Positions 3,664 to 12,581 of a stretch of 33,920 nt of DNA are shown here, piece after piece (the stretch's first letter is position 1; each line of letters opens with the position of its first letter). A program made the translations under genes and the position numbers. The notes under the pieces are model-generated. The model was not told the origin of the DNA and did no database searches. It saw nothing but the letters and a program-made list of their open reading frames with translations. This DNA comes from Armatimonadota bacterium (lineage in GTDB: Bacteria; Armatimonadota; Zipacnadia; Zipacnadales; VGFC01). The stretch covers positions 1 to 33,920 of the forward strand of contig VGFC01000028.1 in NCBI GenBank assembly GCA_016869045.1, written 5' to 3'.

Positions 3664-4725
3664 CTACCCCGCATCCCTCGACAGCCAGTGTTCGAACCAG
3701 GCGAAGGACTTGCGGCCGCTCCACTCGTGGCCGCCGGCGAAGACGTCGCCGATGAGGCGGTCGGAGGCGCCAGCGGCGGCGTAGATGCGCTCGACCTGTG
3801 CGAAGGCGGCCTTCGCATCGTCGATCACGAAGCACTGGTCCTCTTCGCCCATCTCGATGCAGAGGGGCTTCGGGGCGATCATCCCGGCGACCTCAGGGAT
3901 GTCACCGATGGTCAGGAGGCCGGGCATGTACTGCGCGCCGCAGAAGTTGCCCTTGCCGCGCATGGTGATTGCGTCACCCTTGACGGTGCTGACGTAGCCG
4001 CTGATGCAGGCGACCTTCAGGCGAGGTTCGAGCGCCGCGAGGTAGGTCGTCATCGTGCCGCCGAAGGAGAGGCCGCCAACTCCGAGCCGCTCGGGATCGA
4101 CCTCCGGGCGGGACTGGAGGTAGTCCACGCACTTCATCCCATCCCAGATCTGCAGCGCGAGGAGGTGATAGCCGAGGTAGCCCATCGCCATGTAGTTCAC
4201 GTTGCAGGGATCGCGGCCGGGACGCGCCCAGTCCGCCGGGCTGCAGCGCTCGCCGAAGCCGCGCCAGTCCGGGGCGACGACCACGTACCCCCGCCGCGCG
4301 AACTGCCGCGCGTAGTCGTAGTTGAGCGCCTGCACGTGCTGGCGCTCTTCCTCGGTCTCGCAGACTCCGCAGATGTCGATCTTCCCGCGACCGTGGCCGT
4401 GCGCGGCGAGGATGCCGGGGCGCTTCTCGCCGGGGCGGAGGTCCTTCGGGACGAGGACATACGCGGCGACGGTTGCGTACTTCTCGGAGTTGAAGTAGAC
4501 CTTCTCGCGGATGTGGTCCTCGCAGTCTACGGTCTCCACGATCTCCGGCTCCAGGGGCACGGGCTCGGGGAACCGGCCGAGCAGCGCGCGGAGCTTCCGG
4601 TCGAAGGCCTTCCGCCAGCGCTTCCAGTCCTCGCGCGTGCTGCCGTCGAAGGTCAGCTCCGAGCGCTCGTTGGCGATCCATGCCAGGGCTCCGTCGTAGG
4701 GTGAGAGGTAGCGGGGCGCGGCCAT
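3664..4725 (-). CDS. Alpha/beta-hydrolase of the acetyl xylan esterase/dienelactone hydrolase type
   Basis: This 353-residue protein starts at ATG 4725 behind AAAGGAG. No signal peptide is seen. The catalytic triad is visible: nucleophile Ser220 in GLSFGG, acid Asp296 in EMGEEDQCF and His333 in GGHEWSG. The oxyanion/HG region is GILAAHGHGRG near residue 105, and an APDWRGFGER segment follows at 151. The architecture matches the Abhydrolase_7/acetyl xylan esterase-like family found widely in Planctomycetes and Armatimonadota. It probably removes acyl groups from sugars or other small esters; the substrate is not evident. It lies downstream of the dehydratase and methyltransferase genes on the same strand, separated by a 197-base gap filled with hairpin repeats. 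Confidence 0.85.
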   Translation of the reverse strand: MAAPRYLSPYDGALAWIANERSELTFDGSTREDWKRWRKAFDRKLRALLGRFPEPVPLEPEIVETVDCEDHIREKVYFNSEKYATVAAYVLVPKDLRPGEKRPGILAAHGHGRGKIDICGVCETEEERQHVQALNYDYARQFARRGYVVVAPDWRGFGERCSPADWARPGRDPCNVNYMAMGYLGYHLLALQIWDGMKCVDYLQSRPEVDPERLGVGGLSFGGTMTTYLAALEPRLKVACISGYVSTVKGDAITMRGKGNFCGAQYMPGLLTIGDIPEVAGMIAPKPLCIEMGEEDQCFVIDDAKAAFAQVERIYAAAGASDRLIGDVFAGGHEWSGRKSFAWFEHWLSRDAG

Positions 4726-4762
4726 ATCGGCTCCTTTCAGAGCGTGTATGGGAAACGTGGGC

Positions 4763-4897
4763 GGGCGCCATGAATGGCGCCCCTACACGATCGGGCGCGA
4801 TGAATCGCGCCCCTACACTGCGAACGACCAGAGCCTTGCCGTCATGTAGGGGCACGATTCATCGTGCCCGCGTGTAGGGGCGTGATTCATCACGCCC
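4763..4897. repeat. Cluster of four covarying 20-bp hairpin repeats (composite copy 1)
   Basis: Four units each consist of a 9-bp perfect stem and a 2-base turn, with a TAGGGG/CCCCTA flank on one side. They lie at 4763-4782 (GGGCGCCAT arm), 4793-4812 (GGGCGCGAT), 4850-4869 (GGGCACGAT) and 4878-4897 (GGGCGTGAT). The first two have the flank on the right and the last two on the left, so the pairs face each other. Stem sequences differ between units, but every difference is matched on the other arm. The cluster fills the gap between the methyltransferase and esterase genes. A related composite lies inverted at 12469-12581. Confidence 0.9.
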
Positions 4898-4922
4898 GAT
4901 GCCGTGCCTCCCGTACACCCTT

Positions 4923-5675
4923 TCAGTGATGAGCGACGACGATCATCTGATCGCTCGATGATGGCTCGAACGGGCTGCGGGCGAAGTCGCCCAGGAGCTC
5001 GACGGAGCGGAAGCCCGCGTCCGTCAGGATGCTCGTCATCTCGGGCTGCGTCCAGGCTCGATGCTCGGTCTCCCAGTCCTCGCGGACCCACCCGTCCGCC
5101 TCGCGCGTCAGCTTCACCATCGTGAAGCGGATGGGGTTGCGGTCGAGGTCGAAGATGCGCAGGAAAAGCGTCTCCTGCCCGTCCATCATGCGGACCTGCG
5201 GTCCCATCAGTCGCTCGCCGCGGAGGCGCATGGCCTCGTAGTTCAGCTGCTGGATGACGAGCAGCCCGCCGGGCTTCGTCAGGTGGGCGAAGTCCTGCGC
5301 CGCTCGCGCCGCGTCCCGGTCGGTGAGCACGTGGGGCCAGGAGTTGCCCAGGCAGGTGACCGCGTCGAAGCTGCGGCCGAGGGCGTCGAAGGTCTCGCCG
5401 AAGCCCGCCTGCACCCACTCAACCGGTTGGCCGGCGTACTTGCGGCGGCAGACGGCGATCATCTCGGCGCTCAGATCCGCCCCCACGACCTCCAGCCCCC
5501 ACGAGGTGAAGAGCGCCGCGTGCTCACCCGTGCCGCAAGCGGTGTCCAGGACGCTGGCCACTCCATGGCGCGCAAAGAGGTCGCGGTAGAACGGAGCCTC
5601 GCGGGCCAGGCGCTCATCCCAGTCGATGACCGTGTCGTAGCCCTCGCCAAGCTGATCGTAGAAGTCGTCTGTCAC
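4923..5675 (-). CDS. Class I SAM-dependent methyltransferase
   Basis: This 250-residue protein starts at GTG 5675, 12 bases after the stop of the upstream dehydratase gene, so the two form an operon. Motif I is VLDTACGTGEHAALF (residues 42-56), the acidic residue after strand beta-2 is Asp67 in VVGADLS, and motif IV is AVTCLGNSWPH near residue 105. The C-terminal half (LLVIQQLNYEAMRLRGER, then an all-beta insert) resembles the glycine/sarcosine N-methyltransferase-like and UbiE-like small-molecule enzymes. The methyl acceptor cannot be read from the sequence. It may modify a product of the neighbouring sugar-acid dehydratase, but that is only suggested by position. Confidence 0.85.
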   Translation of the reverse strand: MTDDFYDQLGEGYDTVIDWDERLAREAPFYRDLFARHGVASVLDTACGTGEHAALFTSWGLEVVGADLSAEMIAVCRRKYAGQPVEWVQAGFGETFDALGRSFDAVTCLGNSWPHVLTDRDAARAAQDFAHLTKPGGLLVIQQLNYEAMRLRGERLMGPQVRMMDGQETLFLRIFDLDRNPIRFTMVKLTREADGWVREDWETEHRAWTQPEMTSILTDAGFRSVELLGDFARSPFEPSSSDQMIVVAHH

Positions 5676-6958: not shown

Positions 6959-8386
6959 ATGAGGATCCTGCTTGTCAATCCCCCATACCAGACCTTCACC
7001 TGCAACCTGGGTGTCGGCCATCACGTGCCGCTGGGCCTGTTGATGGTCGGCGGGCCGCTGGTTGATGCAGGGCATGAGGTCACGCTGCTCGACGCCGAGG
7101 TCAGGCACCTGAAGGACTCGCAGATCGTGACCGCCGTGGTGGAGGCGCAGCCCGACCTGGTGATGGCGGGGCACTCGGGCTCCACGCCGGCCCATCCTAC
7201 GGCGATACGGATGCTGCGGGCGATCAAGGCGGCGTGTCCGGGCGTGCGCACTGTGTATGGCGGCGTGTACCCGACGTTCCACGCGCAGGGCGTCCTGGAA
7301 GCCGAGCCCGCGGTGGATGTCATCGTTCGCGGCGAGGGTGAGCTGGCCGCGCTGGAACTCGTGCAGGCTCTGGAGCGTGATGCAGACCTGTGTTCCGTCC
7401 CGAGCCTCGCGCATCGGGCAAACGGTGGCGTGGCGTTGACTCCGGAGCGCGAGCCGCTGACGAACCTCGATGACTTCCGCGTGGGATGGGAGCTGGTCGG
7501 CGACTGGCGGCCCTATCGCACGCTCGACCTCGGCGTCTCGGCGGTCGTGCAGTGGTCGCGCGGCTGCCCGCACCTGTGCACCTACTGCGGGCAGCGGCTG
7601 TTCTGGCGCAAGTGGCGCTGCCGAAGCCCGCAGAAGGCAGCCGATGACATCGAGCTGCTGCACCACACCTACGGGGTGCGCTTCCTGCACCTCGCGGATG
7701 ACGACCCGGCGGCGGACCAAGGAGCGTGGCTGAGCTTCCTGGAGGAACTCGCCTCGCGGAAGCTGCCGGTGTTCTTGCACGCGACCATCCGCGCAGATGA
7801 GGTCGTGCGCGATGCCGAGCACTTGCCCCTCTACCGCCAGGCCGGCGTGCTGTACATCCTGCTCGGCGTGGAGTCCGTGGACCGGACGGTGTTGGGCGAG
7901 GTGCGGAAGGGCTCCGATCCGGAGATCGACAGCCGCGCGCCGAAGCTCATGCGCGACAATGGCATCTTCTCGGTGGTCGGACAGGTGGTCGGTCTGCAGG
8001 AGGAGTCGTGGGGCTCCTTCAACCGCACGCTGAAGGAACTCGTCCGCTACGACTCGGACTGGGTCAACATCATGTACGTGACGCCCCACGCCTGGACCGA
8101 GTTCAGCGAGCCGTCCTTGCCAGCGACCGAGCCCGACCTGAGCAAGTGGGACTACCGTCACCCCGTTGTGCGGCAGCGCCGGATGAAGCCCTGGCAGCTC
8201 ATCGCGGCGGCGAAGTGGCTGGAGCTGCGCTTCCACACGCGGCCGGGCAAGCTCTGGCGGATGCTCACGACCAGGGACCCCTTCTACCACAGGGAGCTGT
8301 TCTGCGCGCTGCGTCACACGACGCCGGTCTGGTTTGCGGAGCTGTTCGAGTCGATGTGGTGGGCGCTGTTCCGGGCCGGACGTTGA
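6959..8386 (+). CDS. B12-binding-domain radical SAM protein, BchE-like
   Basis: This 475-residue protein starts at ATG 6959 behind AGGTAGGGG. Residues 1-140 form a Rossmann-like B12-binding-type domain (MRILLVNPPYQ, PLGLLMVGGPLVDAGHEVTLLD, VRGEGE) without the DxHxxG cobalt-ligand motif. The radical SAM cluster motif is Cys203-x3-Cys207-x2-Cys210 (RGCPHLCTYCGQ). The stretch after it (FWRKWRCRSP-KAADDIELL, FLHLADDDPA, ILLGVES) and the C-terminal PWQLIAAAKWLELRFHTRPGK region resemble anaerobic Mg-protoporphyrin IX monomethyl ester cyclase (BchE) and its relatives. No other tetrapyrrole or photosynthesis gene is present, so the substrate is unknown. It is divergent from the dehydratase operon and converges on a sulfatase, 4 bases away. 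Confidence 0.85.
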   Translation: MRILLVNPPYQTFTCNLGVGHHVPLGLLMVGGPLVDAGHEVTLLDAEVRHLKDSQIVTAVVEAQPDLVMAGHSGSTPAHPTAIRMLRAIKAACPGVRTVYGGVYPTFHAQGVLEAEPAVDVIVRGEGELAALELVQALERDADLCSVPSLAHRANGGVALTPEREPLTNLDDFRVGWELVGDWRPYRTLDLGVSAVVQWSRGCPHLCTYCGQRLFWRKWRCRSPQKAADDIELLHHTYGVRFLHLADDDPAADQGAWLSFLEELASRKLPVFLHATIRADEVVRDAEHLPLYRQAGVLYILLGVESVDRTVLGEVRKGSDPEIDSRAPKLMRDNGIFSVVGQVVGLQEESWGSFNRTLKELVRYDSDWVNIMYVTPHAWTEFSEPSLPATEPDLSKWDYRHPVVRQRRMKPWQLIAAAKWLELRFHTRPGKLWRMLTTRDPFYHRELFCALRHTTPVWFAELFESMWWALFRAGR

Positions 8387-12468: not shown

Positions 12469-12581
12469 CACGGCATCGGGCGTGATGAATCACGCCCCTA
12501 CACGTGGGCGCGATGAATCGCGCCCCTACATGACGGCAGGCGTAGGTTGCCTACAACGTAGGGGCACCATTCATGGCGCCC
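12469..12581. repeat. Three covarying hairpin repeats (composite copy 2, inverted relative to 4763-4897)
   Basis: The hairpins lie at 12478-12497 (GGGCGTGAT arm), 12506-12525 (GGGCGCGAT) and 12562-12581 (GGGCACCAT with one G-U pair). The first 36 bases, 12469-12504, are an exact reverse complement of 4871-4906. The next 34 bases match with three changes, two of which are the paired arms of one stem. The element sits between the convergent amidase and GH-D glycosidase genes, so it could act as a bidirectional terminator, although no U-tract follows the stems. Confidence 0.9.

Follow-up and report, generated by a model that had tools for sequence, protein, structure and literature searches.

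Near-identical GTAG-type REP hairpins within a MITE-like composite element of an Armatimonadota genome

The four hairpins embedded between positions 4763 and 4897 of the window (i.e., the whole stretch of 33,920 nucleotides of Armatimonadota DNA analysed here) are GTAG-type REP elements, a known kind of bacterial repeat. The matched changes in the two arms of their stems are real, yet they are a published property of REPs; what stands out is the presence of near-identical 24-base hairpins amid drifting neighbours. Very probably (about 0.88), the hairpins are the GTAG REPs of a RAYT (TnpA_REP, HUH-Y1) system, and the array that they form is a four-REP composite inserted as a MITE.

The sequence-only reading had described four perfectly pairing 9-bp hairpins in this region, and their positions and pairing were confirmed: all four palindromes, of 20 bases each, exhibit perfect 9-bp stems with a 2-nt turn. 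In each of them the GTAG foot abuts the stem on its 5' side, and the unit is therefore 24 nt long (GTAG plus 20; Table 1). A second array, composed of three units, is present in the same window; its third unit carries one stem mismatch, and no ends of the type-I element can be recognised around it. Both arrays fall between predicted genes; elsewhere, some of the units are located inside RAYT ORFs. Positions 1637-1704 of the window contain a further inverted repeat, of 28 bp (GTGGGGCAGGCTTCCAGCCTGCC...GGCAGGCTGGAAGCCTGCCCCAC, with TACC after it), which resembles another repeat family.

Table 1. Location of the features discussed in the text (window coordinates, unless a contig is given).
Feature	Coordinates	Strand	Details
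alpha/beta-hydrolase gene	3664..4725	-	ATG at 4725, 14 bp from the element
Target-site duplication TCA, left copy	4737..4739		target YTNAG
MITE-like composite element, type I	4740..4922		183 bp; four REP units, order B- A- D+ C+
REP unit form B	4763..4786	-	GTAG + GGGCGCCAT-TC-ATGGCGCCC; palindrome 4763-4782
REP unit form A	4793..4816	-	GTAG + GGGCGCGAT-TC-ATCGCGCCC; palindrome 4793-4812
REP unit form D	4846..4869	+	GTAG + GGGCACGAT-TC-ATCGTGCCC; palindrome 4850-4869
REP unit form C	4874..4897	+	GTAG + GGGCGTGAT-TC-ATCACGCCC; palindrome 4878-4897
Target-site duplication TCA, right copy	4923..4925		matches the left TCA
Methyltransferase gene	4923..5675	-	other side of the element, co-directional with the hydrolase gene
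Second three-unit array	12478..12581		C- 12478-12501, A- 12506-12529, third unit + 12558-12581 (GGGCACCATTCATGGCGCCC)
Cognate RAYT	G000:C303:7257-7889		211 codons including the stop region; five flanking units, two in frame

The units are beyond chance in the genome harboring the window (7.87 Mb in 723 contigs), where the pattern TAGGGGC-N3-ATTCAT-N3-GCCC has 661 exact matches vs none for a reversed-pattern control. About 19% of this fragmented assembly (1.48 Mb, a sample partly picked for containing units) was examined base by base, and in it 164 of the 177 units with at most two mismatches correspond to four exact stem forms (A, 63 copies; B, 48; C, 34; D, 19), hybrids between the stems of different forms being isolated single cases. 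The units recur in fixed arrangements, mainly B- 6 A- 28 D+ 4 C+ and A+ 6 B+. A fifth stem form, GTC, is located beside and inside a RAYT gene. The sequence-only reading had regarded the inner stem positions as free, and had indicated the existence of only a few variants, spread by simple duplication, as the outcome that would speak against it. Within this genome the positions are not free, and the few stem forms, repeated in fixed-order arrays, are exactly that outcome. The genome also contains further GTAG palindromes (GGGCGGACCCACGTGTCCGCCC, GTCGGGATACCAATCCCGAC, CCGTGGGCGCAAGCCCACGG and GACAGGCTTCAGCCTGTC).

A different picture emerged from the comparison of genomes, since the claim that arm changes are matched, which did not hold as free variation within this genome, is strongly supported across phyla. 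A scan of named genomes disclosed units in at least 114 stretches belonging to many phyla, with roughly seven chance matches expected in the scanned collection (as estimated from the 18 fixed bases). Among the matches listed, 80 loci were used for pairing. All three unconstrained positions are paired in 75 of their 86 units (one per locus and stem), vs 14.4 on average and at most 28 when the 3' triplets were shuffled, a procedure that ignores the relatedness of the units. In the 24 distinct sequences of the same matches, 25 cells are changed on both sides, vs 7.2 after shuffling; none of the 500 shuffles reached 25, and every slid control of this double-change test was far below the observed value. 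The hairpins had also been considered to be unlike ordinary REP elements; this part of the claim did not survive, in that most of the GTAG families are split into subfamilies bearing alternative complementary stem residues (Di Nocera et al. 2013, PMC3733652), and the units of the window are GTAG REPs of this kind.

As regards the carrier, the array of the window lies in an element bounded by imperfect terminal inverted repeats (GAGCGTGTATGGGA.../...TCCCGTACACCCTT, with GAGCGTGTATGAGAAG as the consensus across copies) and by a target-site duplication, both of which are features of IS5-family MITEs. Pairs of these ends recur at an outer distance of 184 bp, and other type-I copies are bordered on both sides by CTGAG, CTTAG, CTAAG or CTCAG. 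At the orthologous locus of a genome of the same genus (G001), both neighbouring genes are present (80-86% identical), whereas the element has no counterpart, the sequences flanking it being contiguous there, with an overlap of 8 bp (BLAST). The ends of the array resemble those of the IS1031/IS427 group of IS5-family MITEs. The array is read as a MITE, inserted most likely via an IS5-like transposase acting on these ends. A possible mover is an IS of about 934 bp harbored by contig C156 of the same genome (L366:1451-2385), with an IS5-like transposase over two frames, ends of the type GAGCCTGTACGAAAAG and CTAAG on both flanks, that is, the same CTNAG target as the MITE. Its pairing with the REP-carrying MITE is suggested by these similarities, and another enzyme may have moved the element, since the terminal inverted repeat of this IS differs from the MITE consensus at three of the compared positions of each end.

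Within the element, A/D and B/C form inverted pairs in one hairpin, the whole having been inserted as a MITE bounded by terminal inverted repeats and provided with a target duplication. The units are not tied to a single carrier, because A+B dimers are also found at sites with unique flanks and within a second dispersed palindromic element (gggagtccgcgatatcgattctc ... gagaatcgcggattccc; loci L050, L057, L079, L097, L103 and L121), which is unrelated to the type-I ends. This distribution bears on the idea that the array is a plain IS5-derived MITE or dispersed repeat, whose hairpins would be internal sequence multiplied by simple duplication, with RAYT uninvolved. Such an origin would fit the terminal inverted repeats, the TNA target duplication, the fixed order of the units, the empty site and the existence in the genome of an IS with similar ends; however, it is highly improbable, given that the unrelated palindromic element holds units too, that others stand alone between unique flanks or lie next to and within RAYT genes, and that co-duplication predicts an equal divergence of all the parts of the element, which is at odds with what follows.

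In order to compare the parts of the element, copies were chosen by their pairs of inverted ends alone, disregarding the hairpins, which yielded 15 pairs vs a mean of 0.2 with shuffled ends. The comparison set consisted of the 12 pairs with at least three intact units, the other three, having no intact core, being left out. The pairwise difference in these 12 elements was 0.7% in the 24-bp units, 17% in the ends and 28% in the interleaved spacers. These values supersede an earlier estimate (2.5% vs 30%), which was biased because the copies had been located through their cores. The GTAG foot and a fully paired stem are kept in all of the 47 units counted in the 12 elements, the turn differing in two of them; hence, the suggestion that something keeps the palindromes perfect was borne out, in spite of the divergence of the spacers. 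Only one element (L086) exhibits a changed stem, and in this case a complete form-A unit occupies the D position. The edge of the core is sharp to the base, the pairwise difference rising from 0.0 for the last bases of the core to 0.43 at the adjoining position outside it.

Since core and spacer most simply arrived jointly at each site, these values call for either a strong selection acting on every unit or a unit-precise renewal. The contrast between 0.7% and 28%, with its one-base edge, argues against simple duplication and long-tract gene conversion. A homogenisation of the hairpins by gene conversion among the about 660 near-identical copies would be in agreement with the very high core identity of dispersed copies and with the whole-unit swap of L086, but it appears unlikely, in that ordinary conversion tracts would take the flanking bases along, and the jump of the difference falls at the very edge of the unit. 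A more tentative proposal, which we regard as doubtful, is that RAYT activity overwrites old units in place with a 24-nt precision, which might leave identical units in ageing elements while the adjacent bases drift; according to this proposal, and with the same reserve, whole-unit swaps such as that of form A in the D position might be the footprints of the overwriting. It is known that the spacers of REPINs are less conserved than their REPs and that compensatory changes are common in them (Bertels and Rainey 2011, PMC3116915). A contrast in this direction was thus already known; the least expected result is the size and the sharpness of the contrast inside another mobile element.

The position of the array might also point to the selection by the host of an RNA function, the hairpins acting as mRNA stabilisers, attenuators or terminators. 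The entire element folds into a single long hairpin (-124 kcal/mol, z = -11), and it is located between two co-directional genes, directly upstream of the putative ribosome-binding site of the hydrolase gene, so that it would be part of the hydrolase leader if transcribed from upstream; G001 has the sequence of this putative site as well, at its empty locus. Nevertheless, this function is quite improbable: the GTAG foot, which lies outside the hairpin and is not needed for RNA pairing, is conserved like the stem, units occur within RAYT coding sequences, and no Rfam family matches the window. A terminator or promoter role was discarded, as none of the four window hairpins is followed by a T-run or shows a terminator signature, and a terminator/promoter scan of positions 4600-5050 found none.

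The reading of the hairpins as REPs of a RAYT system finds its counterpart in a linked transposase gene. A Pfam Y1_Tnp scan of the genome retrieved ten genes, none of which is flanked by the unit family within 1.5 kb; the resulting view that no cognate RAYT exists in the genome was overturned by a search with the RAYT protein of a relative (G036), whose gene (L142) is flanked by units and contains one of them in frame. This query recovered RAYTs of the window's genome (G000) that Pfam had missed, apparently because an in-frame insert splits the domain. The cognate RAYT of contig C303 is flanked by units at 7174+, 7202+, 7903+, 7931+ and 7959+, and its two in-frame units, on the minus strand, encode GVMNDAPT (104-111) and GAMNRAPT (114-121), between HVH (72-74) and WQRGYY (155-160). 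The MPNHxH and WQRxYY motifs (the HUH motif and the catalytic Tyr, respectively) are visible in the RAYT alignment. The protein matches the NCBIfam model REP_Tyr_transpos (NF047646) with E=1.9e-14; with NCBIfam as with Pfam its score stays under the curated threshold, for which the in-frame insert is a plausible reason. AlphaFold modelled it with confidence save for the insert region (residues 98-115, pLDDT <50), and in a fold search of the PDB the model best matched 4er8, the structure of a RAYT in complex with a REP hairpin; a PDB sequence search with the RAYT found nothing. Few RAYT copies of the C303 type are present in the genome, some of them cut off at contig ends, and its other RAYTs are bordered by different GTAG palindromes. 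As an example, the RAYT of C64 carries and is flanked by a second REP family, GTAGGGGCAGAGCGTGCTCTGCCC (L121:17428-18253; L303:17723; G000).

The presence of REPs inside RAYT genes is not restricted to this genome. Among the 35 MPNH-type RAYT ORFs collected, 20 contain GTAG/GCAG palindromes in the HuH-Y loop, 27 palindromes being located inside this loop vs 7 elsewhere; no such palindrome was found in the HuH-Y loop of the MPDH-type ORFs collected. In the 14 RAYT loci with both an inside and a flanking REP, the mean identity between the two was 0.86, vs 0.30 (maximum 0.66) after shuffling. RAYTs whose own REP family is inserted in frame in the loop that separates the HUH motif from the Tyr motif (L301:7193-7889, i.e., G000:C303; L308:4815-5492, from G036; L275, L272, L318, L327, L338, L344, L346 and L359) span several phyla, Armatimonadetes, Myxococcales and Atribacteria being among the named records. 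Since Quentin et al. 2018 (PMC6006769) had already reported in-gene REPs between the motifs in TnpA_REP subclass 2.4, the present case is a confirmation and a taxonomic extension rather than a discovery. In the Gemmatimonadetes genome of L233, an MPDH-type RAYT (L348) has four GTAGGGGCGGCATTCATGCCGCCC units alongside and none inside, which links the ATTCAT-centred family to more than one RAYT type.

On the basis of the whole body of data, the following scenario may be proposed. The RAYT would recognise the GTAG plus the hairpin in single-stranded DNA, so that only perfectly paired units would persist or be copied, and the inner stem bases would differ between REP lineages only when both arms are changed. 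In this genome the amplification has involved a small number of stem lineages (forms A-D and the GTC form beside the RAYT), and the array of the window is a composite of four REPs that entered its site as a 183-bp MITE, its most likely mover being an IS5-like transposase working on the inverted ends. A continued recognition by the RAYT, through either selection or re-copying, may hold the cores identical.

REPs are among the commonest bacterial repeats, and it is a wider question whether they owe their persistence to selection by the host or to re-copying. When the units are locked in the copies of another mobile element, the spacers represent an internal clock for the REP cores, and the two possibilities become testable in one genome and its relatives; moreover, the base-sharp edge of the unit narrows the mechanisms that can be admitted.

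REPs with alternative complementary stems (PMC3733652) and REPs inside RAYT genes (PMC6006769) were already published, and the units described here share much with both. They exhibit the features of GTAG-type REPs, that is, a GTAG located 5' of a 20-40 bp palindromic stem-loop, a high dispersed copy number and a RAYT gene carrying the same REP (C303 in G000, L142 in G036). In common with the families of PMC3733652 they have the 5' GTAG, stems of 6-13 bp, 2-nt TY-type loops, hundreds of copies, dimers and clusters in opposite orientation, subfamilies with complementary stems and some dimers within longer palindromes; they differ in the Armatimonadota host, absent from the phyla named there, and in being housed in a MITE with a demonstrable target duplication. 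The features of the RAYT system (the HUH motif and the catalytic Tyr, the RAYT fold, the in-frame REPs between the motifs and the three G-C pairs that open the REP stem) match those of subclass 2.4 (PMC6006769), with none contradicting it, the assignment being judged by features. The REPINs of Pseudomonas fluorescens (PMC3116915) also consist of inverted REP pairs forming a long hairpin, with a linked RAYT, REP parts conserved above the spacers and compensatory changes, whereas the present unit comprises four REPs, each with a different stem form, and is provided with terminal inverted repeats of the IS5 type and with a TNA duplication, two traits for which no description was found in the case of REPINs. 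Lastly, the element shares with IS5-family MITEs the GAG... terminal inverted repeat, the TNA duplication in a CTNAG target, a short non-coding sequence and a related IS, but it differs from them in its cargo, which consists of REP units belonging to another transposition system.
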